Below, piece by piece: positions 10,259-31,358 of a stretch of 44,932 bases of DNA. A program made the translations under genes and the position numbers. The notes beneath the pieces are model-generated. The model had not been told where the DNA came from. It made no database searches and was given only the letters and a program-made list of their open reading frames with translations. Positions within the stretch are counted from its first letter, which is position 1. Every line of letters begins with the position of its first letter. The DNA is from Dysgonamonadaceae bacterium (GTDB lineage Bacteria > Bacteroidota > Bacteroidia > Bacteroidales > Azobacteroidaceae), in NCBI GenBank assembly GCA_031267385.1, contig JAIRZF010000221.1, forward strand, positions 1 through 44,932, read 5' to 3'.

Positions 10259-13200
10259 TCATCGCTTTGTATCTGTCCGAAATGGCGTTGCAGGCAATCC
10301 TTCGGTATTGAAAAGGGTTGCTCCCGGATTGTTAGCCCATGCATATCTTACGGCTACGGGTTTGTCTATTTTATGGCTGTACACGATGATCTTGTCGCCC
10401 TCTATTTCCGCTTTCGCCCATTCCTGTTTTTTGTCTGCCCCGGCAATCGTGAATCCTTTGAGATAACCGTATTTATCATTGGAAGTTAAGGACGATCCGT
10501 GTGTATCCATTGTGACGATGGCTTTGTTTCCTGTAAATTCAACGGACTTGAATGTCGGCCCGGAGTAAACCGGGGCGCCGTGTTTATAGTCTTTATTCAA
10601 AGCGATCAGGGACAACCGGCGTCCGACCTCCTGTTTATTTGTCGGATGTATGTCGTTGGGATTGCCTATGTCGTATATCACCACTTGTCCTGTTTTCGGG
10701 ACACTCAGCGTCATTGTTTGTGCTTCGCGAAGTTCTGCCCAGGCGCTTTCTTTCGGGTTATTGTCTTCCGGATAAAGGTTTGCGAGTTGCACCCAATAGA
10801 ACGGGAAGTCGTATCCCCATTTGCTGCGCCAGTCATTTATCATGGCCGGGAAAAGGCTGCGGTAATTATCAGCGGCTCCTACATTATTTTCGCCCTGATA
10901 CCATATTACTCCTTTGATTGGGAACGAGGTAAGGGGATTTATCATTGTGTTGTAGAGGGAGGAATGAAGCATATTGGGTGATACATCCAGAACGTTATAT
11001 TGGGCGTTTGTTACTGAGGCTTTGTACATCCATTTTCCGGCCAGGGAGAACTTATCTTTTGAGCCTCCCTGCAGTTCCAGATACAAATCTTCGGAGGGAC
11101 TCCACATTCCGCCGCTGCCTCCGGTGTCTGTTATTTTTACGGTGATGTTGTTTTTCCCTTTTTTCAACACTCCCGGCGGAACATTATAGTAGCGAGGGGT
11201 ATCCCAGCCTTCTGATCTTCCGATTTCTACGCCATTGATCCATGTAATTTCATTGTCGTCAATGGCGCCTAATGATATTACGGCTGATTTTCCGTTAGCT
11301 ACTGCCGGTAATGTTATGTCGTATTTAAACCAGATATGGCCGTCGATCAAAGACAGGGGCGTGGTAGACCATTCGCACGGGACGTCGGCCAACTCCCATG
11401 CCGAGGACTTAAAATCGGGACTGAACCATCCGGCGTCCATAGCCGGATCGGTTTTCATAGCTTCCAGAAAGGCTTGCATGCTTCCTGTGTTTCGGTTTAT
11501 ATATGTATCCAGATTGGCAACGACTTCGGGGTTATAATTCTTTCTGACTGTTTCGGGCAGGGCGTTGAAAGCTTCTATGCTCATCCATGTTTCGATATCG
11601 GTTCCTCCCCATGAAGCATTGATGATGCCTATCGGAATATTCAATTTCCGGTACAATTCCCGTGCATAGAAATAGGCTACTCCTGAAAATTGGCCGGCAG
11701 CGCTTGGGGAGCAAACCTGCCATTCTGCTGTGAAATCATTCTGAGGGTTGGCTTTTATGCTTTTGGGCGCTCTTAATGAACGGATTTGGGGATAACCGGC
11801 ATTGGCTATTTCTTCTGCTGCGTTGTCGGATTGTCCGACAGTCCATTCCATATTCGATTGCCCGCTGCAGAGCCATATGTCGCCGTTAAGGATGTCATGT
11901 AATTCTACGACATTATTTTCCCCGGTCACGGTCATCGTGTAAGGGCCTCCACAGGGCGTCGGCGAAAGCACGGCTTCCCACTTCCCGTCATTGTTGCTGC
12001 GTGTTTTCAGCGTCTGCCTGTTAAACCGGACTTCGATTTGTTCGTTTTTACCGGCTTCGCCTCTTATTTTCACGGGAACATCCCGTTGCAGGATCATGTG
12101 ATCGCTGAAAAAGCCGGATAATTTCACTTCTGCCCCGGCAGGTTTAAACAGGACGGCATCGGCGACGATGATCCCGTCGGCTCCTTTATTTGATATTTCC
12201 ACGTAACACTCCTTTTCGCCGGTCAGACGGAACCTGCCTATGTTCACCCATTCACCGGAAGTCTGTCCGACCACAACAATATCGGCTGCGTTGATCGTCA
12301 TATCCAGTTTTTGCTGTCCGTCGAAGACCGTCACTTCGGTATGCGAAGATGCTTTGTCCACTTTGGGAAAATAGACGTACAGGTCATAATCGTTGTCTTT
12401 CGTTATTCCGGGACTGTATTTCACCGCTTTAAGTACGGCTCCTTTTGAGTCGTCCGACAAGAAATCAGGTCCGTAAGCTTTCCATTCTTCTCTTTTCCAT
12501 TCGCCGGTGATTGTTACCCGGTCTTTATCGCTGTTGTCGACGAGTATTTCGGGTTGACTTCCGTCTGCAAGCGGATTATTTCTGAATTCGTTCCTAATTT
12601 CGGAGGAAGCCACACGCTGTACCACGCCGTCACATTTATCAATGGCTAATACTGCCGCAATGGCTGCCGACTGTCCCAACACCATGAATACCGGTTCCAT
12701 ACGGATGGATCCATAGGCGATGTGGGATGCCGAAATACAAACGGGAACGAGGAGGTTGGTGACTTCCGACTGCTTCGGGGTTATCGACCTGTATGCTATC
12801 GGATAGGGTCCGAATCCGCCTATTTCAACATTTCCCTCGTTTTTGATCATCGCCAAATCCGCCACATTCACGACATGGCGGTCGCAGTTATGGGAATCCA
12901 TTGTATATGCCGCCCAGCCTATCGGATCGGTCACTGTTTCACGACCCTGGCAGTGGTTCTGTGTCATAACGGTTTCTCCTATCAGACGGCGGGCTTCGCG
13001 CACATACAGTTGTGGCGACCAGTGATTGTTGTCCGGATATTCGTCTTTCGGATAACCCCATTGGCGCATCTGGCGGCGTATATTTTCGGGAACTCCGGGA
13101 TCGTTTCCTATAAAATAAAATAAACCTTTGGTATAGTCTTCGTGCAATTTAATGATGCGCTCGCGTTCGTCGTAGCCGGCATCGGGATACGCCTGGTTTT

Positions 13201-14152
13201 CGCCGATCATGTCCATGGAAAAACCTCCCATGTTGTTGATGTCGGTTTTATTGTTAGGCATCATTGTCCAGATAAAGGCATCGGTATGCTGTTTCCAGGG
13301 ATATTTTTCTTTGATGCGTTTTAATAATTCGTAGCGCGAGGGATCGTAATTATCGGGTCTGGTTATCGGAATCATGTTGTCGGGGTCGTTTGTCAAACAG
13401 GTGCGAAAACAGTAAGCCTGTACCTTTTTATCTCCTGTCCCGTTTGGAAGAACCGGTTCGGGATTAATGCCGTATATTACTCCGCTTGTGGGGTCACCGG
13501 GGATGATATACGGGTCTATCCCGTCGGGTACCTGATGTCGATCCATAAGTTGCACTCCATTGTAAGTTTCTCCGTACAGGCTGTTTGCTTCTCTTCCCAC
13601 AAAATAGGAGGCTCCTGCCCTGGCCATCAAATCGCCTTCGTAGGAACAATCAATAAATACTTTTGCCTGCAATCTCCTGTTTGTTTCCGCCGATGGAGCT
13701 TTTGAGTTTTCAATCTCAATTTCCGTTATCCGGGTTCCTTCTTTTTTTATGGTTGTCACGCGGTTTTCGTACCATACTTCGATATTGGCTTCTTTGATGT
13801 AATCGTTGAATTGAGCTTCGGCGACACCCGGTTCAAAAATCCATTGTTCCAATTTACCGTAATGCATGCCTAAACGGCGATAGAAGTCAAGAGCCAGGCC
13901 TTGCACCACATATTTATTCCCGATGTCGGTAAAGCCAAGTCCTCCGGAACTCATTCCTCCGAGATTTCGCCCGGGTTCTATCAGGATTACCTTTTTGCCT
14001 GATTTGGCGGCGGTATAGGCAGCGATGACTCCTGCCGATGTTCCTCCGTAAATGCAAATATCGACACTGACTGCACTGTTGCGCGAATTACACGAAACGG
14101 CGGTGGTGATAACTGCCAGTAAATAAACAATCTTTTGCCTTAAATTTTTCAT
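10259..14152 (-). CDS. Fusion lipoprotein: FAD-dependent oxidoreductase + golvesin-like domain + SGNH acetylesterase
   Basis: A 1297-residue three-part protein. I chose ATG 14152 because it gives a clean lipoprotein signal (VITTAVSC, Cys21); an in-frame ATG lies 24 bases upstream. Residues 30-530 are a FAD_oxidored (xanthan-lyase-annotated) flavoprotein with GGTSAG at 36-41 and GRNLGGMSSGG. Residues 536-665 resemble the golvesin/xanthan-lyase C-terminal beta domain (VDNSDKDRVTITGEW). From about 676 to the end is a sialate-O-acetylesterase-type SGNH esterase: GQSNMEW with Ser766, NASWGGT, and DIHPTNK with Asp1167 and His1169, plus an inserted jelly-roll of about 120 residues. The frame is unbroken across the junctions. 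Last gene of the PUL operon. It probably removes acetyl groups from a glycan at the cell surface or periplasm; the oxidoreductase substrate is unknown. Confidence 0.85.
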   Translation of the reverse strand: MKNLRQKIVYLLAVITTAVSCNSRNSAVSVDICIYGGTSAGVIAAYTAAKSGKKVILIEPGRNLGGMSSGGLGFTDIGNKYVVQGLALDFYRRLGMHYGKLEQWIFEPGVAEAQFNDYIKEANIEVWYENRVTTIKKEGTRITEIEIENSKAPSAETNRRLQAKVFIDCSYEGDLMARAGASYFVGREANSLYGETYNGVQLMDRHQVPDGIDPYIIPGDPTSGVIYGINPEPVLPNGTGDKKVQAYCFRTCLTNDPDNMIPITRPDNYDPSRYELLKRIKEKYPWKQHTDAFIWTMMPNNKTDINNMGGFSMDMIGENQAYPDAGYDERERIIKLHEDYTKGLFYFIGNDPGVPENIRRQMRQWGYPKDEYPDNNHWSPQLYVREARRLIGETVMTQNHCQGRETVTDPIGWAAYTMDSHNCDRHVVNVADLAMIKNEGNVEIGGFGPYPIAYRSITPKQSEVTNLLVPVCISASHIAYGSIRMEPVFMVLGQSAAIAAVLAIDKCDGVVQRVASSEIRNEFRNNPLADGSQPEILVDNSDKDRVTITGEWKREEWKAYGPDFLSDDSKGAVLKAVKYSPGITKDNDYDLYVYFPKVDKASSHTEVTVFDGQQKLDMTINAADIVVVGQTSGEWVNIGRFRLTGEKECYVEISNKGADGIIVADAVLFKPAGAEVKLSGFFSDHMILQRDVPVKIRGEAGKNEQIEVRFNRQTLKTRSNNDGKWEAVLSPTPCGGPYTMTVTGENNVVELHDILNGDIWLCSGQSNMEWTVGQSDNAAEEIANAGYPQIRSLRAPKSIKANPQNDFTAEWQVCSPSAAGQFSGVAYFYARELYRKLNIPIGIINASWGGTDIETWMSIEAFNALPETVRKNYNPEVVANLDTYINRNTGSMQAFLEAMKTDPAMDAGWFSPDFKSSAWELADVPCEWSTTPLSLIDGHIWFKYDITLPAVANGKSAVISLGAIDDNEITWINGVEIGRSEGWDTPRYYNVPPGVLKKGKNNITVKITDTGGSGGMWSPSEDLYLELQGGSKDKFSLAGKWMYKASVTNAQYNVLDVSPNMLHSSLYNTMINPLTSFPIKGVIWYQGENNVGAADNYRSLFPAMINDWRSKWGYDFPFYWVQLANLYPEDNNPKESAWAELREAQTMTLSVPKTGQVVIYDIGNPNDIHPTNKQEVGRRLSLIALNKDYKHGAPVYSGPTFKSVEFTGNKAIVTMDTHGSSLTSNDKYGYLKGFTIAGADKKQEWAKAEIEGDKIIVYSHKIDKPVAVRYAWANNPGATLFNTEGLPATPFRTDTKR

Positions 14153-14179: not shown

Positions 14180-15184
14180 TCATTCGAACCGGAAATAGGT
14201 CGTATTCCACCACAGACCTACGTCTTTATATCCTTGTACACGGAAACCTACGGAGCATTTTCCTCCTACAACTTCTACGTCCATTGAGTAATCGGCCATG
14301 CCGCCCAACAGGATGCTTTTTCGCGATTCAACGCCATCTTTGTCAATGAAAATCAAATCGAAATCGTTGGCTGCACCTGTGGCTTTACACGAAAGGGTAT
14401 ATGTTCCGTCCGGGATCCCGGTAACTTCTTGCGTCAGACGCGCCTCGAAGTCCGACAGCCTGACTGCCCATGTACGTGACACGGTTTTGGCGCTTACTCC
14501 GTTTATCGTATAATTGGTTATCTCGAAAGTATTGGGTGTTCCGCTCGCCGTCCAGTGGTTGAATGTGTCGGAGAAATCACCGTTCAACAAGAGGTTTCCT
14601 CCTGATTGAGTGATTTTTATCACGATGTCGGCTATACCGTCTGCTTTTACGACCAGGGAGGTAATGCGTTTGACGGCGCCGTTCTCTCCGGTGGTTATTT
14701 TGAATCCATCTTTTGTTATATCTGTTACTTCACACCATTCATCGGCAGGAATTACGGTATAGTCGAGATTTGTATTGAGTGCGACGGTAAGCGTACCGCC
14801 TGTTTTCTCGAATATTTTATTCTTCTGGCCTTCTTCCATGTTGAGGAACGGCACTCCTGCTCCCTGGGTAAGCACAACTGTTACAGGATCAAATTCAGGG
14901 GATTGAATTGAGATATTCGATGTCCTGGGTTTAACGAGTTCATTTAGTCCTATATTGATATAAAAGCCTATGGCGTTTTTATCGGAAATGGTACACCAGG
15001 GTTCGGAAGAGGCTACACTGTAAGCGACGGTCGTACTTACCGGGATGAATATCGCACCGCCATCTTTGTCGATGGAAACAGTTGTATCTCCTTTGACAAT
15101 GAATTGGTCTTTATCATCGTCTTCACATGCGATCGAGGTATTAAGCACTAAAATCAATGTTATTATTTTGAATATCGTTTTCAT
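14180..15184 (-). CDS. BACON-domain lipoprotein with a C-terminal carbohydrate-binding-like domain
   Basis: A 334-residue lipoprotein (lipobox LNTSIAC, Cys20). Two BACON-type beta domains follow, each with the typical strand-turn pattern and a W-C pair (EPWCTI near residue 64, DEWCEV near 151). The last ~135 residues (NLLLNGDFSDTFNHWTASG to the end) look like a CBM4/9-type jelly-roll. By family knowledge BACON domains are glycan- or mucin-associated spacers in PUL surface proteins. It is likely a surface glycan-binding protein in the position often held by SusE/F-type proteins. It lies 27 bases upstream of the fusion gene. Confidence 0.8.
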   Translation of the reverse strand: MKTIFKIITLILVLNTSIACEDDDKDQFIVKGDTTVSIDKDGGAIFIPVSTTVAYSVASSEPWCTISDKNAIGFYINIGLNELVKPRTSNISIQSPEFDPVTVVLTQGAGVPFLNMEEGQKNKIFEKTGGTLTVALNTNLDYTVIPADEWCEVTDITKDGFKITTGENGAVKRITSLVVKADGIADIVIKITQSGGNLLLNGDFSDTFNHWTASGTPNTFEITNYTINGVSAKTVSRTWAVRLSDFEARLTQEVTGIPDGTYTLSCKATGAANDFDLIFIDKDGVESRKSILLGGMADYSMDVEVVGGKCSVGFRVQGYKDVGLWWNTTYFRFE

Positions 15185-15247: not shown

Positions 15248-16945
15248 TCATTGGGCAAAAGGGCCGACATAATTGATTCTTTTAGCCGGACGACCTGATA
15301 TATCTGTATCCAACATTCCGTCAAACATCACTCCGCTATTGAATACTTTGGGTTCGGACGGAGTGTACAGCAATGCTTTGGCATATCCATCCATGTCTGA
15401 CGGAACGGTAATTTGAGGGTCAAAGCTGAGGATATTCCCGTGAGCTACCGAGAAGTTACCGACTTTGTTATAGAGATTGTTGTCGAATATACAATTGTCT
15501 ATATGGGACTGATCGAATTTAGCTGTTGTGGGAACATCCGACATGAAAATGTTATTGCGGAACGTAAAATCCCTTGAATGTCCTGCATTTGCCCAGTCAT
15601 CGCTGAAAAGCGCCATCGGATAGGAATTGTTGACGATCACCAGGTTGTTGTATACTTCTGTCCGTCCCACGCCACTTGATACGGTCATCATATTGCCTTT
15701 CCAGGTGCATGTGTTATACAGGAATATATTGTTACGAACAATCGTACCTTGGTGGTCGGCATCTTTTGTGTTGCATATCAACAAGCCGCCGCCTGCATTG
15801 TGGTGTAGATAATTGTACTGTATGATTGTGTTTTTACAGGCTACGTCTACGTCCAATCCTTCACCGTCGGCGCTGCCATTGGCCAGTTGTGTATAGGCTG
15901 CTTCATTGAACTGCACCGTGACATCGGTAGAGCAGTATGGCCAAAGTCCGGCGCTGGCATGTGAGGCGCGACCCAGGAAATTGGCAAAGTAGCATTTGTT
16001 ATGGTCTATCCACGAACGGGTGGATCCCATGAGTATGACTCCATCGCCACCCACATAGCTGATATCATTTCCCTGAATAACGACATTACGGCAAGGATAC
16101 CATTTATTATCGTCATTGTCGTACTCATTGTAGCCGCTTCCGGGTTTATCGCGCTGTCCCCATTTGGTGGTTATCAGTATGCCTGTACGCGCTACCTGAT
16201 GAATTTCATTGTTGGTGATATAGAGGTTCTCGTACCAGCTTGGCCCCATTTCTTTTGTTGTGAAGGCTTCGACAATGATTCCTCCGTATTCTTTGTTGAA
16301 CCGGCTATCGGAACAAATAGCTCTCACATCAAGATTTGCCGGATTGACTCCAATAAAGCCGGTATTTCCCGCCCAATTTACGTCTTCGATACGGCATCCC
16401 GATATTTCGATATTTCCCTTCGCTCCTGGTGTCATAGCCTGTATGCGTATACCTCTGGTTCCGGATTTGTTGGTAATACGTATATTGCGGACACGCACAT
16501 TTTCGTCCTGAATGAGTACCGCCTGATCTCCTGTCCCGTTTATAGTCGGGCGTTCCGTACCATCGTATATATCGAGGATGAACGGTTTATCGGGAGTTCC
16601 TTTGAGTTCTTTCAACATCAGCGCGCCGTTGAATACGGCCCCACTTTTGAGCAGCGCCTTCATTTTAGGGGTTTTTTCCATGTAAGATATTTTCCCTAAC
16701 GTTTTGAAGGGTGTATTCCGGCTCAATCCGTCGTTATTGTCGTCACCGGTTGCACTGTCCACATAATAGACGGTATAGTCGCCATCATCGATCGTTGATA
16801 TGGCTGGCGCTACGGATACTTGAGAGTAAGCAATTTCGATCACTCCGGAACCGCCTCCGGTTTCATTGGAAACCGGGTCATCATTTTTACAACTCGACAG
16901 AAAAGGGAATGTAAAAAACAGGATCAAACAAAGTATGTTTTTCAT
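15248..16945 (-). CDS. Right-handed parallel beta-helix lipoprotein (putative polysaccharide lyase or hydrolase)
   Basis: A 565-residue lipoprotein (lipobox FPFLSSC, Cys19) with a short Gly/Ser linker. A DUF1565-like entry follows (YYVDSATGDDNNDGLS, then PFKTLGKI), and then many turns of a right-handed parallel beta-helix with the repeated pattern NxxIxxN/NNxI (IRNIRITNKSG, ISGCRIEDVN, YITNNEIHQV, IQGNDISYVGGDGV, VQFNEAAYT, IQYNYLHHNAGGG, VRNNIFLYN). This fold is shared by pectate lyases, polygalacturonases and related enzymes acting on acidic glycans. No catalytic set can be assigned with confidence. It starts 9 bases after the susD stop, which supports a role in glycan breakdown by this PUL. 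Confidence 0.75.
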   Translation of the reverse strand: MKNILCLILFFTFPFLSSCKNDDPVSNETGGGSGVIEIAYSQVSVAPAISTIDDGDYTVYYVDSATGDDNNDGLSRNTPFKTLGKISYMEKTPKMKALLKSGAVFNGALMLKELKGTPDKPFILDIYDGTERPTINGTGDQAVLIQDENVRVRNIRITNKSGTRGIRIQAMTPGAKGNIEISGCRIEDVNWAGNTGFIGVNPANLDVRAICSDSRFNKEYGGIIVEAFTTKEMGPSWYENLYITNNEIHQVARTGILITTKWGQRDKPGSGYNEYDNDDNKWYPCRNVVIQGNDISYVGGDGVILMGSTRSWIDHNKCYFANFLGRASHASAGLWPYCSTDVTVQFNEAAYTQLANGSADGEGLDVDVACKNTIIQYNYLHHNAGGGLLICNTKDADHQGTIVRNNIFLYNTCTWKGNMMTVSSGVGRTEVYNNLVIVNNSYPMALFSDDWANAGHSRDFTFRNNIFMSDVPTTAKFDQSHIDNCIFDNNLYNKVGNFSVAHGNILSFDPQITVPSDMDGYAKALLYTPSEPKVFNSGVMFDGMLDTDISGRPAKRINYVGPFAQ

Positions 16946-16954
16946 TGATATGGA

Positions 16955-18454
16955 TTATTTTGTGGTATAACCGGGATTCTGTTTTACTATTCCTTCTGAT
17001 TCCAGGATGTATTTTGAGGGGATGGCGAGCCGTACTTTGTGTTCTGCCGACTGGCTATTGGGAAATTGAGCTTTCGAATCAGAGACAAAAGTCCCGTGAC
17101 GTATTTTGTCCTGACGTGATAATCCTTCGGCCATAAATTCGTGCAGGCGTTCGTTTAATATGGCTTCGTTAAACACGCTTTTGTTGGCCGTCTGTGCTAT
17201 CGTCAATGCCGGAAGTTTCACCCTATTGCGAACTTCATTGACCAGATTGATCGCTTCGGGAGTGGGGCCTCCATTGTTTTCGTTTATACATTCCGCCAGG
17301 GATAACATTACATCTGCGAAACGATATATAATAAGGTCTGCGGTGCAATACTCCCCGTTGAATGTAGGGTCGTCTACTTTTACGATAGCCGCCGCATTTG
17401 CCAGGAAGCTATTGTCACGATCGTTTACTTCGCCTGTTATGCTGACATATTTCGATATGATGGAGTTCAAACGGTCGTCTCCGGATTCGAATGTGTCATA
17501 AAAATTCCAATGCATGCCAAATGTAAACCAACATTGGCGATCCTGGGAATATCTTACCGGATAGAACTGTATCATCCATCTGTTTTGCATTCCATCGGCA
17601 AGGCCGCAGGGTATTGCATGTATGATTTCTTTATTTCTTACGCCGGCCTTACTAAACACATCTTTGTAGTCGGTTTTTACCAGGTCGTAGGTATTTCCCC
17701 TATAGGAATAAAGCTCGCGGGCTACTTTTTCGGCTTCGGCAAACTCTTTATTTACCATCTGGAATTTAAGTTTCAACATGAGCGCCATTCCTTTCGAAAC
17801 TCTTCCCCAATCGTCGTCCTGACGTATCGGGAGAACGGCAATGGCGTCATCGAGATAATCCAGCATGATGTCGCAGTATTCTTTATCGCTGAGCCTCGGT
17901 ATGAGTACTTGTGCTTCGGGACTTGCCATGGCTTCTTCTGTAATCAACGGTACGGGGCCAAACAAATCATACATGATAAATCCGATCCATGCATAAAGGC
18001 ATTTGGCCTCGGCTATTGATTTTGTTTTGACGGCGTCCGTTACACCAGAAGCTTCTATTTTCTTTATGGTGTTGGTGATAGCCGTCAATTTATTGTACTG
18101 GGAGTACATTCTTTCCGAAAAATCTTTGGCATATCCGTTTGGCGTATTTTCTTCCCAACGATGTTCCTGATAGGATGGATAACCCGATGCATCGAGCCAA
18201 CGGCTGGCCATGGTTCCCGCCATGAAATCCGACACTACCTGGTAGCTGTACTGGTCTACTCCATAGAAGCTCCCGTATCCCATTCTGAACGGGACATGAT
18301 ACAGCCCGGCTATTGCTTTATTGACATCGTCTTCGTTACGGAAGAAGTTTTCGGGATATATCTCATTAAATGATTCTCTTTCCAATGTACAGGAACTTAT
18401 GGAAAGTACGAATATTACGAATAATATAATGTATAGTCTTGTCTTCATATTCAA
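16955..18454 (-). CDS. susD: SusD/RagB-family surface glycan-binding lipoprotein
   Basis: A 499-residue lipoprotein (lipobox LSISSC) that caps the SusC channel and captures oligosaccharide. It has the usual SusD layout: an N-terminal EIYPENFFRNEDDVNKAIAG segment, a TPR-like core (KCLYAWIGFIMYDLFGPVPLI), and a C-terminal ADVMLSLAE, VNEVRNR and ILNERLHEFMAEG. The start codon directly follows the susC stop codon with no gap, so the pair is surely cotranscribed. The ligand cannot be predicted from sequence. Confidence 0.95.
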   Translation of the reverse strand: MNMKTRLYIILFVIFVLSISSCTLERESFNEIYPENFFRNEDDVNKAIAGLYHVPFRMGYGSFYGVDQYSYQVVSDFMAGTMASRWLDASGYPSYQEHRWEENTPNGYAKDFSERMYSQYNKLTAITNTIKKIEASGVTDAVKTKSIAEAKCLYAWIGFIMYDLFGPVPLITEEAMASPEAQVLIPRLSDKEYCDIMLDYLDDAIAVLPIRQDDDWGRVSKGMALMLKLKFQMVNKEFAEAEKVARELYSYRGNTYDLVKTDYKDVFSKAGVRNKEIIHAIPCGLADGMQNRWMIQFYPVRYSQDRQCWFTFGMHWNFYDTFESGDDRLNSIISKYVSITGEVNDRDNSFLANAAAIVKVDDPTFNGEYCTADLIIYRFADVMLSLAECINENNGGPTPEAINLVNEVRNRVKLPALTIAQTANKSVFNEAILNERLHEFMAEGLSRQDKIRHGTFVSDSKAQFPNSQSAEHKVRLAIPSKYILESEGIVKQNPGYTTK

Positions 18455-21400
18455 TTAAAATTTAATGTCAATACCAAATGTAAATGCACTTGTACTGGGA
18501 TACATGTAGATATCATACTCTGGATCTTGTCCGTTGTAAGGAGTCAAAACGGCTACATTCTTCAACGCTCCGTAGAAACGCATCGACTGACAGATTCTCT
18601 TTGTGATATTCTTCGGGAGGGTGTATCCTAATGAAATATTTTCGAGGCGTATAAACCAGGCCTTTTCCATGAAATAATCGCCGTATCCTAATGTGGAATT
18701 GGTGTTTTGGGTAAATGCCGGGACTTTGGAGTCCAGGTTATCGAACGTATAGCGTTCGCCAAAGTATTGTATGGCATTAGTTCCCTCAAATGGCCCGTAA
18801 GAGAGATTAGCCTTATAATCGTTGTTTTTCCAGTTGTTGAGTTTTCCATACAGGTATATGTTCAGATCAAAGTTTTTGTAATTGAACGTATTTGACCAAC
18901 TGAAAGGGATGGGGGTGTTATTCCCTATTTTTATAAGGTCGGCTTTATCTATTTTCCCATCCGGTTCACCGGAGTACTCCGGCCGTCCGTCTTCATCGCA
19001 GACAATGTTTCCGGCGGCATCGTATAAATAGCCGTTCACATCCCGTATTTTTACTATGCCTGCAATGGCTCCCGGCATGTAGGAGATGGCTTCTCCCGGC
19101 TGTACCAGTCCGTCGGCGCTGTAATACCACATATCGTTCCAGGTATATCGGTATTCATTGTTTATATCCAATATTTCCGACGGATCACGTTTCGTTGTTT
19201 TATCTTTATAATACGTCAGTGTAAACTGGCTGGTCCACGAGAAAGAATTTTTATTGACCAGGACGCCATAGATCGAAAGGTCGATACCCTGCGTTTTGTC
19301 TATCCGTTTTGTATTGTAATTCAAGGTATTCACTTCGTGGTACGACATCAGGTTCTTTGTTCCGATCCTGTCTTTGATTGTCCGTTCATACACATCGACG
19401 GTTGCTCCTAAATGGCCGTTGAACAGCCCCAGATCAAGCCCGATATTTATATCTTCCTGCGATTCCCACGACAGGTTAGGGTTGCCGACCATTGCCAGGG
19501 CGACGCCGCTGGTATGTTTGTTGTTGAAATAATAGTCTTTACCTGCCGTATAGTATGTCTGGGTTCCGGTAAGACTTCCGGCATAACCGGTTATCCCTGC
19601 TCCGGCACGGAGTTTCAGATTTGAAAGCCACTCGAATTTGTTCATGAATTCTTCTTCGTTGATCCGCCAGGCTAAGGCCACACCGCCAAAGTTACCCCAC
19701 TGCTTGTTGGGCGCAAAGTTGGATGATCCGTCGCGACGGAAGTTTGCGGTGAGTAAATACCGGTCTTTGAACGAATAGTTGAGGCGGGATATGAAGGACG
19801 CATTTTCCGTTGTGCTATAGAATGAGCTGACATTCGGTCTTTCGTAGGTTCCAAGTCCAAGATTATGCCATTTGGCGCCATCGTAAGGGAAGCCTTGATT
19901 GTCGGCGCTGAATCCTTCGGATTCTAATTTCTGAAATTCCCATCCTGCCATGAATTTCAGGGAATGGTACTGTGCGAATATTTTGCTGTAAGTCGCCGTT
20001 ACGTTGACATAATAGTTGGAGAGGTTATTTTCATTGATCTTGGCGATACCTCCGGCATATATTCCTTCCTGCGTGGTTGAAGGGAAATAAACCCCGGTAT
20101 TGGCAAATTTGCGGTCATATCCTACGGTTCCTCTTACGACAAGGTCGTCGAAAGGTTTCACATCCAGATAGGCCGACGATAGGAAGTTGTCTTTTTTGGT
20201 ATACATTGTTACGTCCAGGATGGATGCAGGATTCTGCGCCAAACCGTAGATCGTACCCAGGGCATAGTTACCATTTTCGTCCCGGACAGGAATTGTCGGG
20301 TCGTATTTACGGGCGGCCTGAAAGAGGGTGGTAGAACCTGAGGCTCCGGATATGGGAACGTCATTTGAGTTTATCCTGGAATAACTGACTCCTATTCCGG
20401 CCTTGAGCCACTTACTGAATGTCTGGTCGAAGTTTATACGCCCGGTTATTCGATCGTAATCATTATTTTTTACAATACCGTCATTCCCCATATAACCCAA
20501 TGAAATGAGATAAGCCGAGTTTTTATTGTCCCCGGTCAGGGAAAGGTCGTATTGCTGTATTTGTCCGTCGCGAGTCACGGCGTCATACCAGTCGGTTCCT
20601 CTTATAAAATTGTCTATCGCCGACGGATTATAATTCCATTTTTTACCGGATGCTTCATAAAGCCTTGCCAGTTCGTTATATTCGGGAAGCGACTTATCTC
20701 CCCACGGATAGTATCCCTGATCTTTGACCCAGCGCTCGAGTAAGGAAGCGTTCGACGCCAACATGTAGTCTTTCCCGGACATCACTTTGGGTTTTTCGGC
20801 AATCCGTTGTCCTGTATACGAGGTTTTGAGGGAAACATTGGTACGTCCGCTTTCCGTACCTCTTTTGGTGGTGATCAGTATGACGCCTCCTGCGGCGCGG
20901 GATCCGTAGATGGAAGTTGCACTGGCATCTTTCAATACCTGAATGTCCTGAATGTCATCGGGATTAATGTTGTCAAGAATGCTTTCTTTGTCACCTTTGC
21001 CGAAATTCAGTCTCGCATCCGGCTCCCACATTGTACTTACGGGTATACCGTCTACAACTATGAGGGGTGATGCACCGGCTGCGGCTCCTCTGATCTGCAT
21101 CCAGACGGCGGCGCCGGGCTGATTACTTGTCTGGGAGAAGGATAATCCGGGGATTTGCCCTTTCAGTGTTTGTGCCAGGGTTGTGGCGCCGAGTTTAGGC
21201 AATGCGTCTCCTTTGACGGATGCAATGGAGCCTGTAAGGTCGCTTTTTTTCTGCATGCCGTATCCTACGACGACTACTTCATCCAGGGTTTGTGTATTTT
21301 CTATAAGCCTTATTCTTATATCTTTGTTTGCTTCTACTTTTATTTCCTGGGAGAAATACCCCAGGTAATTTATCTTCAGGACAGCGTTTGGGGAAGCTGT

Positions 21401-21892
21401 CAGTGCAAATTTACCGTCCATGCCGGTTGTTGCTGCTTCGGTCGTATTTTTTATTGCAACAATAACACCGATAAGGGGTTCGTCTTTTTCATCTACGACT
21501 ATACCGGTCAGCTCTACTAAAGATCCGGTATCTTGTGATTTTTGCGTGATTGAGAATGTGTTTCCATTGCGCTTGTAGGCGAGTGTTGTCGAAGACAGTA
21601 TTTTATTGAGAAAGTCTTCTATTTTCATATCGGACGCTGATATTGTTATATTCTTGTCGTTTGGTAATATAACGTCCATATATGTAAACCGATAGATCGT
21701 GTTCTTTTCTACTTTGTCAAACACCGATTGCATACTCTCGTTTGTAACGGAGACAGTTACAGTGGTTTGCTGCTGAGCGAAGAGATTATTCGACAAAAGA
21801 ATAATCAATGCTGATAGAAAAACTTTAAAGAACAGATTCTTTTTACTACTTTTGTGATAACAGATTTTTTCCGGATAACATGAATTGTCCAT
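18455..21892 (-). CDS. susC: SusC/RagA TonB-dependent outer-membrane transporter with an STN signalling domain
   Basis: A 1145-residue outer-membrane importer. I prefer ATG 21892; an in-frame ATG 39 bases upstream adds no signal features. After the signal peptide (ending NNLFAQ) comes an STN domain (about 42-118), a CarboxypepD_reg-like beta domain (about 127-200), the LDEVVVVGYG segment (203-212) that starts the plug, then the barrel, ending with a typical aromatic-charged C-terminus (TFGIDIKF). The STN domain is the part that touches the FecR anti-sigma factor in trans-envelope signalling. That fits the fecR and sigma genes directly upstream. It is the first structural gene of the operon. 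Confidence 0.95.
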   Translation of the reverse strand: MDNSCYPEKICYHKSSKKNLFFKVFLSALIILLSNNLFAQQQTTVTVSVTNESMQSVFDKVEKNTIYRFTYMDVILPNDKNITISASDMKIEDFLNKILSSTTLAYKRNGNTFSITQKSQDTGSLVELTGIVVDEKDEPLIGVIVAIKNTTEAATTGMDGKFALTASPNAVLKINYLGYFSQEIKVEANKDIRIRLIENTQTLDEVVVVGYGMQKKSDLTGSIASVKGDALPKLGATTLAQTLKGQIPGLSFSQTSNQPGAAVWMQIRGAAAGASPLIVVDGIPVSTMWEPDARLNFGKGDKESILDNINPDDIQDIQVLKDASATSIYGSRAAGGVILITTKRGTESGRTNVSLKTSYTGQRIAEKPKVMSGKDYMLASNASLLERWVKDQGYYPWGDKSLPEYNELARLYEASGKKWNYNPSAIDNFIRGTDWYDAVTRDGQIQQYDLSLTGDNKNSAYLISLGYMGNDGIVKNNDYDRITGRINFDQTFSKWLKAGIGVSYSRINSNDVPISGASGSTTLFQAARKYDPTIPVRDENGNYALGTIYGLAQNPASILDVTMYTKKDNFLSSAYLDVKPFDDLVVRGTVGYDRKFANTGVYFPSTTQEGIYAGGIAKINENNLSNYYVNVTATYSKIFAQYHSLKFMAGWEFQKLESEGFSADNQGFPYDGAKWHNLGLGTYERPNVSSFYSTTENASFISRLNYSFKDRYLLTANFRRDGSSNFAPNKQWGNFGGVALAWRINEEEFMNKFEWLSNLKLRAGAGITGYAGSLTGTQTYYTAGKDYYFNNKHTSGVALAMVGNPNLSWESQEDINIGLDLGLFNGHLGATVDVYERTIKDRIGTKNLMSYHEVNTLNYNTKRIDKTQGIDLSIYGVLVNKNSFSWTSQFTLTYYKDKTTKRDPSEILDINNEYRYTWNDMWYYSADGLVQPGEAISYMPGAIAGIVKIRDVNGYLYDAAGNIVCDEDGRPEYSGEPDGKIDKADLIKIGNNTPIPFSWSNTFNYKNFDLNIYLYGKLNNWKNNDYKANLSYGPFEGTNAIQYFGERYTFDNLDSKVPAFTQNTNSTLGYGDYFMEKAWFIRLENISLGYTLPKNITKRICQSMRFYGALKNVAVLTPYNGQDPEYDIYMYPSTSAFTFGIDIKF

Positions 21893-21951
21893 ATTAATTT
21901 TGATTTGAAGGTTGATACTAATTGAATACATGCGGGTATTAACCTGGCGAA

Positions 21952-22071: not shown

Positions 22072-23055
22072 TCATTCAAACCGGATCTGTACTTCATCTC
22101 CGTTTTTGGTATATGTGAAATTATAGTGTAATTGTAATATTTTCAGGACGCCGTCGATATAATCTTCTTTGAAGTTTCCGGTGAAAAGGTTTTTGTTATA
22201 ATCGTCGCCCATCACCTGTATTTTAACGCCATACCTGCGCTCCAGCTTTTCTACTATGTCAGAGAATTGCACGGATCTGAATACTAATTCTCCGCGCAAC
22301 CATGCCATTTCGAAGCGGGTCGAGGTTTTGAATACGGATAGAATATCGCGTTCTTTGTAGTAAGCGGCTTTTTCGTTTGGCGACAATATTATCGACTGCG
22401 GTTTTGCTCCTTTGGTCGTTAATTCTATGCTGCCTTCGACCAGGTATGTTTCTATGATCGACGCGCTGCTGTAAGCATTTACATTAAATTTTGTACCAAG
22501 CACCTTTATTTGTACGAGATCGGTATTCACAAAGAAAGGGATCTTTTCATTTTTGGACACATCCAGATAGGCTTCTCCGTTCAGGAATATTTCTCTTGCC
22601 TTGAGTCCGAAATCCGAAGGATAGGATATTGTAGTCGCAGCATTGAGGCAAACGGTTGTCCCGTCGGGCAATGTGATTTGGGCTTTTTCGCCACTTGCGA
22701 CGTCGATGGAGGTAGAGTTGGCAATGAAATTATTAAGCTTTTTATTCTCGGCGTAATGATAAACACTCAGTCCGACAATGAGGGGGATTAATATTGCGGC
22801 GGCGGCTTTTCTTGTCCAGTACAACAGGTTGTGCGTTTTCTTTTGTTGTGGGATGATTCCCAATTTCTCGCTCAGATGATCGAAATCATTCTCCGGAGTT
22901 GTTTTGTCTTCAAATTTATTCCATATATCGGAGAGTATCCCGGTCAATTCATCATCCGACATCATTGACAGGTTTTGCCTGAGGTATTCGCGTTCTTCCA
23001 CATTCAGTCTGCCATGAATGTGCGTATTTATTAATTCTTTGAGTTCTTTTCTCAT
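22072..23055 (-). CDS. FecR-family anti-sigma factor
   Basis: A 327-residue inner-membrane protein. The N-terminal ~80 residues are cytoplasmic and should bind the sigma factor (no canonical DUF4880 motif is obvious). One membrane segment spans about 86-103 (AAAAILIPLIVGLSVYHY). The periplasmic FecR domain is at about 115-210 (GEKAQITLPDGTTVCLNAATTISYP, LNGEAYLDV, VLGTKFNVNAY). The C-terminal DUF4974 domain covers the last ~75 residues (LVFRSVQFSDIVEKLERRYGV, LFTGNF). It holds the sigma factor inactive until SusC signals. It lies 93 bases after the sigma gene and 179 before susC. Confidence 0.93.
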   Translation of the reverse strand: MRKELKELINTHIHGRLNVEEREYLRQNLSMMSDDELTGILSDIWNKFEDKTTPENDFDHLSEKLGIIPQQKKTHNLLYWTRKAAAAILIPLIVGLSVYHYAENKKLNNFIANSTSIDVASGEKAQITLPDGTTVCLNAATTISYPSDFGLKAREIFLNGEAYLDVSKNEKIPFFVNTDLVQIKVLGTKFNVNAYSSASIIETYLVEGSIELTTKGAKPQSIILSPNEKAAYYKERDILSVFKTSTRFEMAWLRGELVFRSVQFSDIVEKLERRYGVKIQVMGDDYNKNLFTGNFKEDYIDGVLKILQLHYNFTYTKNGDEVQIRFE

Positions 23056-23148: not shown

Positions 23149-23718
23149 TTAATAAAAGAATAACATAAACAGGAAACAGGACAGACCCATTTCTTTTCTC
23201 AGGACTTTCATTGCGGAAGATAATATATTGTAGACCGTTTGTTCACTGATGTTTAGTCGTTTGGCTATTTCGGAGGAAGTCAATCCTTCTTCTTTGGATA
23301 ATTCAAATATTTCCTGTTGCCGGGAGGTTAATTTTGTTTTTGCAGTATTCAGTTGTTGTTGAAAGTAATCGAAATCTATTTTCTGTTCGATATTGTCATT
23401 GCTGTCCGCACACAATTGGTCGCAGTATACCATATAATCTTCGAAAACCGGGCTGTTGGTTCGTTTCCGGAATTCGTCTATTATCTTATGTTTCGAGATT
23501 TTGAAGAGATAAGACTTAAACGACAACGACATGTCTATGTTTTCACGGTTTATCCACAGCTTGATAAAGGTCTCCTGCATAATATCTTCCGCCATGGATC
23601 TTGACCGGGTAATATTGAATATAAACCCATACAAGTTAGGTGAATATTCTTCATAAAGGATTTTGAAATCCGAGTAAGATCCCTTTACTAAGCCTTCTAT
23701 GTGTTTCGTGACATCCAC
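23149..23718 (-). CDS. ECF sigma factor (RNA polymerase sigma-70 family, Bacteroidetes expansion type)
   Basis: A 189-residue ECF sigma factor. Region 2 is at about 22-95 (YSPNLYGFIFNI, AEDIMQETFIKLW), region 4 at about 130-180 (LTSRQQEIFELSKEEGLTSSEIAKRLNISEQTVYNIL). The start is GTG: an in-frame TGA lies 18 bases upstream and the nearby ATG is in another frame. It is paired with the FecR gene downstream and should direct RNA polymerase to the susC operon. Upstream is a long repeat-rich gap. Confidence 0.93.
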   Translation of the reverse strand: MDVTKHIEGLVKGSYSDFKILYEEYSPNLYGFIFNITRSRSMAEDIMQETFIKLWINRENIDMSLSFKSYLFKISKHKIIDEFRKRTNSPVFEDYMVYCDQLCADSNDNIEQKIDFDYFQQQLNTAKTKLTSRQQEIFELSKEEGLTSSEIAKRLNISEQTVYNILSSAMKVLRKEMGLSCFLFMLFFY

Positions 23719-26846: not shown

Positions 26847-27929
26847 ATGTTCCGATTCAAACGAATAGCAATCAAAATAGGAAGTAATGTACTGACCCGG
26901 AAAGACGGCGCCCTGGATCTGACCAGGATGTCCTCACTGGTAGATCAGATTGCCGAATTACATAAAAAAGGAATGGAAATCATCCTGGTTTCCTCCGGAG
27001 CCGTAGCCTCCGGGAAAGGTGAACTCAAGGCGAAAGGGAAATTGGATGATGTTTCTTCACGGCAATTATACTCGGCTGTGGGACAGGCAAAACTCATCAA
27101 CCGCTATTACGATTTCTTCAAGGAACACGGAATTGCCTGCGGACAAGTCCTCACTACAAAAGAAAGCCTCGGAACCCGCCGGCATTACCTCAACCAAAAA
27201 AACTGCATGAGCGTAATGCTGGAAAACAGGGTCATCCCCATCATGAATGAAAATGACACGATCTCAGTCACCGAGTTAATGTTCACGGACAACGATGAAC
27301 TTTCCGGCATGATTGCGGCAATGATGGATGTTGAAGCCCTGATCATCTTAAGCAATGTAAACGGGATATACAACGGCTCTCCGGATCACCCCGGATCAAA
27401 AATAATACCGGTTGTAGACCCTTCACAAAAAGATCTTTCCGACTGCATCCAAACGTCCCGGTCTTCATTCGGGAGAGGGGGCATGATCACCAAATACCGG
27501 ATTGCCGTGAAAGTTGCCGATGAGGGAATTGAAGTGATTATCGCAAACGGGAAAAAAGACGATATCCTTCCCGAACTGGTGAAAAAAGACCCGACAGTCG
27601 ATTGTACCCGCTTTTTGCCGACATCAAAAGGAATCTCCGGAGTGAAGAAATGGATCTCCCATTCCGACAGTTTCGCAAAAGGAGAAATATACATCAATCA
27701 AGGTGCAAAAGAAGCCCTGCTCGGAGAAAAAGCAAGTTCCTTACTGCCGGTCGGTATCACAAAAATAACCGGCGTTTTCGAAAAAGATGATATTGTGAAA
27801 ATCCTTGATGAATCGGGATTGCAACTCGGCATCGGGAAAGTGGGATTCGACAGTTCCGGGACAGAAGAATTAATTGGCCGGAAAGGAAATAAACCCATCA
27901 TACACTACGATTATTTATATCTGGAATAA
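26847..27929 (+). CDS. proB: Glutamate 5-kinase
   Basis: A 360-residue kinase that phosphorylates glutamate as the first step of proline synthesis. The N-terminal amino-acid-kinase domain has IAIKIGSNVLTR, ILVSSGAVASGKGEL and MNENDTIS; the C-terminal PUA domain begins near GEIYINQGAKEAL. I chose ATG 26847 because it gives the usual distance to IAIKIGSN; a GTG 12 bases upstream is also possible. proA is not next to it. Its 3' end overlaps that of apbE on the other strand by 19 bases. Confidence 0.93.
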   Translation: MFRFKRIAIKIGSNVLTRKDGALDLTRMSSLVDQIAELHKKGMEIILVSSGAVASGKGELKAKGKLDDVSSRQLYSAVGQAKLINRYYDFFKEHGIACGQVLTTKESLGTRRHYLNQKNCMSVMLENRVIPIMNENDTISVTELMFTDNDELSGMIAAMMDVEALIILSNVNGIYNGSPDHPGSKIIPVVDPSQKDLSDCIQTSRSSFGRGGMITKYRIAVKVADEGIEVIIANGKKDDILPELVKKDPTVDCTRFLPTSKGISGVKKWISHSDSFAKGEIYINQGAKEALLGEKASSLLPVGITKITGVFEKDDIVKILDESGLQLGIGKVGFDSSGTEELIGRKGNKPIIHYDYLYLE

Positions 27930-28933
27930 TCTGACAGTCCTTTGGAGCGGATAATTTTCATAACGCCCTCCCGATCCGAATAAACAAATATATAATCTAG
28001 CTCCGGCAGATCATCCGCTAACTTACAAGCCTCATCCAATCCCAAGGTCATAAATGCCGTGGCATAAGCATCGGCCGTCATGCAATCGCCGGCAATCACA
28101 GTAGCGCTCAACATCTCGTTCTCCGCCGGATAACCGGTACGGGGATCAATCGTATGAGCATACTTTTTACCATCCCTGATATAATAATTCCTGTAATTTC
28201 CCGAAGTCGCCATGGAACGATTACAGAGTTCAACAACCTCAAGACGCTCTTTCCTCAACCCGCTCCGGTCGTCATCCGGTCTGGTAATTTCAATTTTCCA
28301 ACATACGCCGTTCGGATTTTGACCCTTTACCCGAACCTCCCCTCCTATTTCCACCATATAATCTTCGATTCCGTAAGAATCCAAAAGACCGGCTACCACA
28401 TCACAGGAATAACCTTTGGCAATCGCAGACATATTCAGTATGACACGGGGATCTTCCTTAATGATCCGGTTATTCTCAAGACGTATCTTCCGATAACCGA
28501 CAAACGATTTCAGGCTGTCCACCATCTGGGGAGTCACACTGTCGGACTCGTTGAATCCAAATCCCCATAAGTTGACGAGAGGTGCGCACGTGACATCAAA
28601 AGCGCCATCCGAAGCCTCCGACACTTCCTGTGCCTTGTCAAATACAGTGGCAAAATAACGATCAACCTCCACCGGCCGGTTATTATTGACCTTGTAAATA
28701 ACAGACTCTTTGTTGAAGGGATTTAACGACAAATCAAAACTGTCCAGAACCGCCCGGATCTCATCTCCAAGCAGCTTATTGTGCCTGTATTTTATGTGAA
28801 AAGAGGTATGAAACACCTCTCCCTGAGAAAGATAATATTCCGGTGAATTCCTGCAGGATGAAACAGCAAATGTAACAAACAGGAAGAGAATAAGAAAGTT
28901 CAAGATTCGTTCCCTGCCTCCGTTCATTCCCAT
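27911..28933 (-). CDS. apbE: FAD:protein FMN transferase (ApbE)
   Basis: A 340-residue lipoprotein (lipobox FAVSSC) that attaches FMN covalently to threonine or serine of redox proteins such as Na+-NQR and Rnf subunits. Family segments are clear: [66 protein letters not shown], and [10 protein letters not shown]. Its start overlaps the guaA stop by 10 bases, so it follows guaA in one transcript. It ends inside the 3' end of proB on the opposite strand. No flavoprotein target is encoded in the window. Confidence 0.95.
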
Positions 28934-30444: not shown

Positions 30445-30462
30445 GATAGTAAAATTTGCCTG

Positions 30463-30470
30463 CAAAATTA
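30463..30470 (-). promoter_or_regulatory. -7 element of guaA
   Basis: TAATTTTG on the minus strand, an exact TAnnTTTG match 18 bases before the guaA ATG. No good -33 element is seen. A plus-strand TATTTTTG at 30493-30500 may serve the divergent DUF1080 gene. Confidence 0.6.
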
Positions 30471-30560
30471 AGTATTTCATTTGAAAAAGAATTATTTTTG
30501 ACGACATATTGGAGTCTAAACTCATTCCATACCGATTTCTCAACAATTAACTCATATAAA

Positions 30561-31358
30561 ATGAAAAATCTATTACTTGTTTCACTGGCAATTGTGTGCT
30601 TCGTCTGCTGCAAAAACACAAAAGAAGAAACGGCAACATCCCCCCGGGAAGAAAACTGGATCCAATTATTCAATGGAAAAAATTTAGACGGATGGACCGT
30701 TAAAATCCGCGGTTATGAAGCCGGGAACAACTTCGGCAATACATTTCGCGTCGAAGACGGAGTATTGAAAGTGGCTTATGACGCTTACAACGACACTTTC
30801 AACAATCGCTTCGGACACATCTACACAAATCAGGAATATTCTCATTATAAATTACGGGTAGAATACAGATTTGTAGGCGAACAACTCTCCGACGGCGCAG
30901 GATGGGCCTACCGTAACAGCGGAGCAATGTTGCACGCACAAGCCCCGGAAACAGTCCATCTGGATCAGGATTTTCCGGCTTCCATCGAAGCCCAGTTCCT
31001 TGGAGGGAACGGCACGGACGACCGGCCAACCGGCAATGTATGTACACCCGGAACCGACATATTTATCGGAGGAGTCCCCTACGGACAGCATTGTGCAAAT
31101 TCAACATCAAAAACGTATCCTGGCGACCAATGGGTAAGCATGGAAATGATCATACTGGGAGACAGTATCGGACATCACATCGTTGATGGAGATACCGTCA
31201 TGACCTATACAAAAATGACTGTCGACGGTAAAGGACTGAACCCGGAAGCAAACGTCACTCCCGGCCCGTTGAAATCCGGCAGGATAGCCTTACAATCTGA
31301 AAGTCATCCGGTTGAATTCAGGAAAGTTGAATTATTAGACCTGTCAAAACGGGAATAA
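30561..31358 (+). CDS. DUF1080 (3-keto-disaccharide hydrolase-like) lipoprotein
   Basis: A 265-residue lipoprotein (lipobox CFVCC). The DUF1080 domain fills residues ~33-260: WIQLFNGKNLDGWTVK at the start, FRVEDGVLKV, NSGAMLHAQ, SIEAQFLGG and a C-terminal SGRIALQSESHPVEFRKVEL. Members of this concanavalin-like family include 3-keto-glucoside hydrolases. The start is ATG 30561; the open frame begins earlier but those residues are not signal-like. It is divergent from guaA. No partner gene of a sugar-oxidation pathway is beside it. Confidence 0.88.
   Translation: MKNLLLVSLAIVCFVCCKNTKEETATSPREENWIQLFNGKNLDGWTVKIRGYEAGNNFGNTFRVEDGVLKVAYDAYNDTFNNRFGHIYTNQEYSHYKLRVEYRFVGEQLSDGAGWAYRNSGAMLHAQAPETVHLDQDFPASIEAQFLGGNGTDDRPTGNVCTPGTDIFIGGVPYGQHCANSTSKTYPGDQWVSMEMIILGDSIGHHIVDGDTVMTYTKMTVDGKGLNPEANVTPGPLKSGRIALQSESHPVEFRKVELLDLSKRE

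Follow-up and report, generated by a model that had tools for sequence, protein, structure and literature searches.

Within the 44,932-nucleotide stretch of Dysgonamonadaceae bacterium DNA analysed here (the window; GenBank assembly GCA_031267385.1, contig JAIRZF010000221.1), a single gene encodes an FAD_oxidored domain, a Golvesin_C domain and a CE20-type acetylesterase. As judged by alignment with the separate orthologs of its two halves, the fusion seems to be genuine and to be under selection. The best explanation of this arrangement, which we consider reasonably probable, is that one enzyme would oxidise and deacetylate the same acetylated glycan, the oxidation being a step that we infer. 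The union of FAD_oxidored with CE20 is a domain pairing that is new in itself but of a kind that recurs, and it does not amount to a new system.

A flavin domain and a CE20 esterase in one frame

The frame runs on the minus strand from 14152 to 10259 without an internal stop, in agreement with an earlier note on this DNA that had described an unbroken frame of 1297 codons, its strand left unstated. Counted from the preceding stop it spans 1306 residues, again with no stops inside, and the plus strand of 10259-14152 contains many stops and is not open. The same note had named FAD, golvesin and esterase domains with Ser766, Asp1167 and His1169, all of which were recovered by Pfam and by alignment to CE20 enzymes (Table 1).

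In the N-terminal half, the match to PF12831 scores 356 bits against a cut-off of 27 and covers positions 1-415 of the 416 in the profile, with GGTSAG as the GxGxxG-type motif of the N-terminal dinucleotide-binding fold. The golvesin domain that follows (PF25275, 67.4 bits against a cut-off of 31.6) had been described as a middle domain; it is indeed present, but it belongs to the normal architecture of the FAD partner. The FAD-golvesin part has 181 positions that at least 97% of relatives conserve; the window protein keeps 177 of them, and its four changes are mild. An AlphaFold model of the FAD half built from 57 sequences had a predicted local distance difference test score (pLDDT) of 92 and a predicted template modelling score of 0.93. 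Fold comparison aligned its FAD-binding core, about 200 residues, with Thi4, thioredoxin reductases, flavocytochrome c3 and others at Z 16-18; in this predicted structure, such matches show only dinucleotide binding, and no reaction is inferable from them. The structural counterpart of the golvesin domain is the C-terminal domain of the Paenibacillus xanthan lyase 6f2p (Z 19.6, 2.0 Å, 136 residues). This likeness explains the label 'xanthan lyase', which the earlier note had rightly called unproven for this family. Identity as a PL8 xanthan lyase was rejected, as the match is confined to residues 901-1040 of 6f2p, and the lyase catalytic domain is not in the window protein (Pfam matches up to an E-value of 1 include no lyase catalytic family).

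The C-terminal half has a SASA match in Pfam (E 4.5e-18), and residues 663-1295 are colinear with three solved CE20 chains, XacXaeA (7kmm), PpCE20_II (9ega) and Fl8CE20_II (9h4u), at E-values of 1e-133 to 1e-140. A GH2_N-like jelly roll, at 27.1 bits just below the cut-off of 28, splits the SGNH pieces, and the colinear alignment fits a beta-sandwich inserted in a split SGNH domain together with flanking N- and C-terminal beta-sandwiches. CE20 Block I is kept as G764-Q765-S766-N767-M768 within GQSNMEW, carrying the catalytic Ser and the oxyanion Gln, and the DxH of Block V is kept as D1167-I-H1169 within DIHPTNK. From these alignments the esterase half is CE20-type with an ancillary domain. 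PMC12313940 describes this architecture for such enzymes, with a Ser-His-(water-Asp/Asn) triad in which the Asp meets the His via an ordered water. The earlier description of a complete SGNH acetylesterase thus stands as to completeness, its class being refined to CE20, for which this water-mediated triad is described. Full-length colinearity, GQSNM, DxH and the inserted beta-sandwich are shared with 7KMM, 9H4U and 9EGA; unlike these, the window CE20 lies behind FAD_oxidored-golvesin and lacks a signal peptide of its own. The extra domains named for CE20s in the part of that paper used here are CE4, CE15 and GH10, and FAD_oxidored is not among them. A structure model of the golvesin and CE20 domains together (12 sequences, pLDDT 65) was too weak for use.

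At the anchor position of the DxH motif, the separate CE20 orthologs introduced below have Asp, Asn, Ser or Thr: L076 has Asn, L075 has Ser and L082 has Thr. Of these, Ser and Thr go beyond the Asp or Asn that PMC12313940 gives for the water-mediated triad.

The seam falls at the mature start of the esterase

When the FAD half was used to scan 84,980 species genomes, 465 relatives came up, of which the best 80 were examined. In these the FAD-golvesin protein stops at about 670 residues, once the golvesin domain is complete, and none is fused to CE20, which bears out the view that the two halves are usually separate genes. These stand-alone Bacteroidota proteins share their architecture and locus with the window protein and differ in where they end. 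In L076 (Bacteroides congonensis) and L075 (a Bacteroidales metagenome-assembled genome, MAG), the FAD-golvesin gene is followed in the same frame by the CE20 gene after one TAA and a few bases, and these CE20 neighbours are 61-63% identical to the window CE20 half. The frames of 1327 (L075) and 1326 (L076) read through that TAA, and large frame values were therefore verified by translation. In L134 (Bacteroides sp. 51) and L082 (Paludibacter UBA5753), CE20 lies one gene further downstream of FAD and is itself fused to GH3; in L134 the intervening gene is a GH43. The FAD-golvesin half is 83% identical to that of L074 and 76% to that of L134. The L074 FAD gene has its own stop, and elsewhere in the same genome a contig (L194) has at its edge the last part of a CE20 ortholog, 80% identical over 51 residues, which precedes a separate gene that is GH3-like by its sequence.

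Alignment with the separate orthologs placed the seam at residues 673/674, or window positions 12134/12133, close to the point near 12100 at which the earlier note had proposed to look for a missed stop or frameshift. Here the end of the FAD-golvesin half, VADAVLFKPAG, runs directly into AEVKLSGFF. The signal peptides of four separate CE20 orthologs end right before AEVRL, AEIKL or AQLRM, and the CE20 half begins exactly at the mature start of these four proteins. Nothing remains in the window of the stop codon, the spacer or the signal peptide of the esterase, and the frame is kept. These features suggest that adjacent genes of one polysaccharide-utilisation locus, for an FAD_oxidored-golvesin lipoprotein and a CE20 acetylesterase, would have been fused by a deletion that took out stop codon, spacer and signal peptide, giving a single membrane-anchored bifunctional enzyme.

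The N-terminal lipobox AVSC with Cys21 is present. An acidic export signal after the lipobox Cys is described for surface lipoproteins of Bacteroidota. The residues that follow Cys21, NSRNSAVSV, include no acidic residue, and the proposal of a surface enzyme is not supported by the sequence.

Two further observations concern genes next to FAD-golvesin. A second FAD_oxidored without golvesin (about 47% identical) often lies directly downstream, accounting for 17 of 59 downstream neighbours (L079, L089, L107, L108, L133, L138, L141, L145-L151 and others). After the unfused FAD gene of L074, a frame on the minus strand (L074:11604-11975) looks by eye like an IS200/REP-type transposase.

Selection, phylogeny and related fusions

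Comparison of the FAD-golvesin half with L074 gave proportions of nonsynonymous (pN) and synonymous (pS) change of 0.09 and 0.74, and that of the CE20 half with L134 gave 0.18 and 0.77; at these pS values synonymous change is close to saturation. Such ratios indicate strong purifying selection on the FAD-golvesin and CE20 halves alike, and the two have similar GC content and third-position GC content (GC3). With the frame unbroken, the residues conserved and pN/pS low, a pseudogene or a frameshift was rejected. The trees of the two halves agree, grouping the window with L134 (and with L074 for FAD), then with L075 and L076, then with L082. This agreement suggests that the FAD and CE20 domains travelled in one locus and that the fusion would be a late event inside an unfused group.

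No second FAD-CE20 fusion was found in the genomes sampled. There was none among 393 genomes of the order searched with the junction as query, none in searches at family, phylum, order and class level (overlapping samples), and no match to the whole fusion protein in a first contig scan of genomes. One apparent candidate (G826 C49) was rejected when translation revealed three separate genes.

Fusions of FAD_oxidored to other glycan-active enzymes were found in other Bacteroidales, namely FAD_oxidored-Golvesin_C-GH28 (L213:1155-4490, minus), FAD_oxidored-GH130 (L214:924-3851) and FAD_oxidored-GH92 (L052:1912-5713, running to the contig end). These share with the window a flavin and a glycan-active domain in one frame, but have other partner enzymes and more distant FAD domains. 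The CE20-GH3 fusions of L134 (L134:13207-17307, 1366 residues) and L082 (L082:13011-17114, 1367 residues) lie in the orthologous locus and have a close CE20 (71% and 58%, respectively); they carry GH3 at the CE20 C-terminus, whereas the window CE20 carries FAD-golvesin at its N-terminus. The flavin domain is thus a repeated fusion partner of glycan enzymes.

Proposed function and alternative explanations

These data allow us to propose how the fusion protein may work. The CE20 half would strip O-acetyl groups from the glycan by the Ser-His-(water-Asp) mechanism of its family, the FAD half would use its flavin for a redox reaction on a sugar belonging to that glycan or to oligosaccharides from it, and the golvesin domain would hold the substrate or the other domains. 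Fusion would place the esterase, which is separately exported in relatives, on the lipid anchor of the FAD partner, and this shared anchor would put both steps in one compartment at a fixed ratio. The FAD_oxidored fusions to GH28, GH92 and GH130 and the CE20-GH3 fusions suggest that both domains are tied to glycan breakdown, and the repeated fusions of FAD_oxidored to such enzymes appear to be the best evidence that the flavin domain acts on glycans. The earlier note had proposed oxidation and deacetylation of the same glycan; action on one glycan gains support from adjacent, co-evolving, syntenic genes of a susCD locus, whereas for oxidation no characterised relative was found.

Several points weigh against a joint action. 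Being fused is no proof of a common substrate; the fusion was seen in one MAG only and is known from its assembly; and the nearest relative (L074, 83% identical in the FAD half) carries an unfused gene. The fold matches, which are to many unrelated flavoenzymes, extend only over the roughly 200 residues that bind FAD. No solved structure covers the substrate part of FAD_oxidored, and the literature searched on this family in glycan loci yielded no reaction, nor any biochemistry for the FAD half or a close relative.

A real fusion of independent activities, in which joining the genes saves a signal peptide or fixes a ratio and each half has its own sugar as target or works at its own stage, seems to us rather unlikely. 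Neighbouring genes can fuse by deletion without functional coupling, and the partner is changeable, given CE20 joined to GH3 in the sister loci and the GH43 gene that separates FAD and CE20 in L134; yet both halves come from one conserved locus with agreeing trees, and L213 has a similar order of FAD, golvesin and carbohydrate-active enzyme with GH28. It is less likely still that the FAD half is no glycan oxidiser and is instead a redox-neutral flavin enzyme, acts on a non-sugar substituent or serves mainly in binding. The want of a characterised close relative and a fold search that places only the FAD-binding core would fit such a role, but conservation is strong across the entire FAD half and its fusion or linkage with glycan-active enzymes is recurrent.

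An assembly artefact, in which the contig joined two genes or lost a stop through a sequencing or assembly error, we hold to be very improbable, even though the fusion comes from a single MAG of 332 contigs that is 87% complete and in the nearest relative the CE20 ortholog is found at the edge of a contig. Had a stop been lost or a base been misread, the spacer and signal peptide would still be there, and as both are absent, sequence error is a poor explanation. The seam moreover keeps the frame and coincides with the first residue of mature CE20, GC and GC3 are common to both halves, and the flanking genes are syntenic.

Returning to joint oxidation and deacetylation, the fusion with a deacetylase narrows the hypothesis, the substrate of the flavin enzyme being probably an acetylated glycan or its fragments. 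The join therefore suggests seeking the flavin reaction on substrates that the CE20 half accepts. FAD_oxidored is common in the glycan loci of Bacteroidota, with 465 relatives in one genome collection. A broader and more doubtful proposal is that FAD_oxidored, with or without golvesin, may be a widespread glycan-redox module of this phylum, plugged into CE20, GH28, GH92 and GH130 enzymes and performing an undescribed flavin-dependent step. If so, it might, for example, make a keto sugar that eases later cleavage.

The surrounding locus

The fusion gene lies in a polysaccharide-utilisation locus, with genes for an extracytoplasmic function (ECF) sigma factor, FecR, SusC and SusD, a beta-helix protein and a BACON-domain protein all upstream of it on the same strand (Table 1). 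The order sigma, FecR, SusC, SusD, beta-helix, BACON, FAD is wholly or almost wholly kept in L074, L134, L075, L076 and L082, where the L082 locus begins inside SusC and that of L074 inside FecR. Among FAD-golvesin genes more generally, the upstream neighbour is mostly SusD and the downstream neighbour a second FAD_oxidored, with no single glycosidase prevailing. The sister loci add GH3, GH43 and GH53 in L134, and GH3, a PF01522 deacetylase and two GH2 in L082. These enzymes weakly suggest that the target may be an acetylated plant glycan containing galactose or arabinose.

Table 1. Positions in the window of the fusion gene, its parts and the neighbouring genes
Feature	Position	Strand	Basis
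Whole fusion gene, 1297 residues + stop	10259..14152	minus (ATG at 14152, stop at 10259)	open frame without internal stop
Lipoprotein signal peptide, residues 1-21, TAVSC, lipid Cys21	14090..14152	minus	sequence reading
FAD_oxidored PF12831, residues 31-522, FAD motif GGTSAG 36-41	12587..14062	minus	Pfam E 4.7e-106
Golvesin_C PF25275, residues 536-669	12146..12547	minus	Pfam E 1.7e-18
Seam, residues 670-677 (KPAG / AEVK)	12122..12145	minus	alignment with separate orthologs
CE20 esterase half, residues 674-1297	10262..12133	minus	full-length alignment to 7kmm, 9ega, 9h4u; tree with orthologous CE20s
Ancillary beta-sandwich inside SGNH domain, residues 923-1039	11036..11386	minus	Glyco_hydro_2_N-like match; CE20 structure alignment
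Ser766 of GQSNM, predicted nucleophile	11855..11857	minus	sequence; motif role from PMC12313940
Asp1167, predicted anchor residue of water-mediated triad	10652..10654	minus	sequence; PMC12313940
His1169, predicted catalytic base	10646..10648	minus	sequence; PMC12313940
BACON-domain lipoprotein	14180..15184	minus	Pfam BACON; syntenic in L074, L134, L075, L076, L082
Right-handed beta-helix, GH136-like, DG..D.D motif kept	15248..16945	minus	solved lacto-N-biosidases, E ~1e-21
SusD-like protein	16955..18454	minus	Pfam
SusC-like TonB-dependent transporter	18455..21931	minus	Pfam Plug, STN, CarbopepD_reg_2
FecR-type anti-sigma factor	22072..23055	minus	Pfam
ECF sigma factor	23149..23718	minus	Pfam Sigma70_r2/r4

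Elsewhere in the window, with no sign of a link to the fusion, 27911-28933 (minus) encodes an ApbE-family protein (flavin transferase family, PF02424), and 30456-31358 (plus), unlinked to the fusion locus, encodes a member of the 3-keto-disaccharide hydrolase family PF06439.

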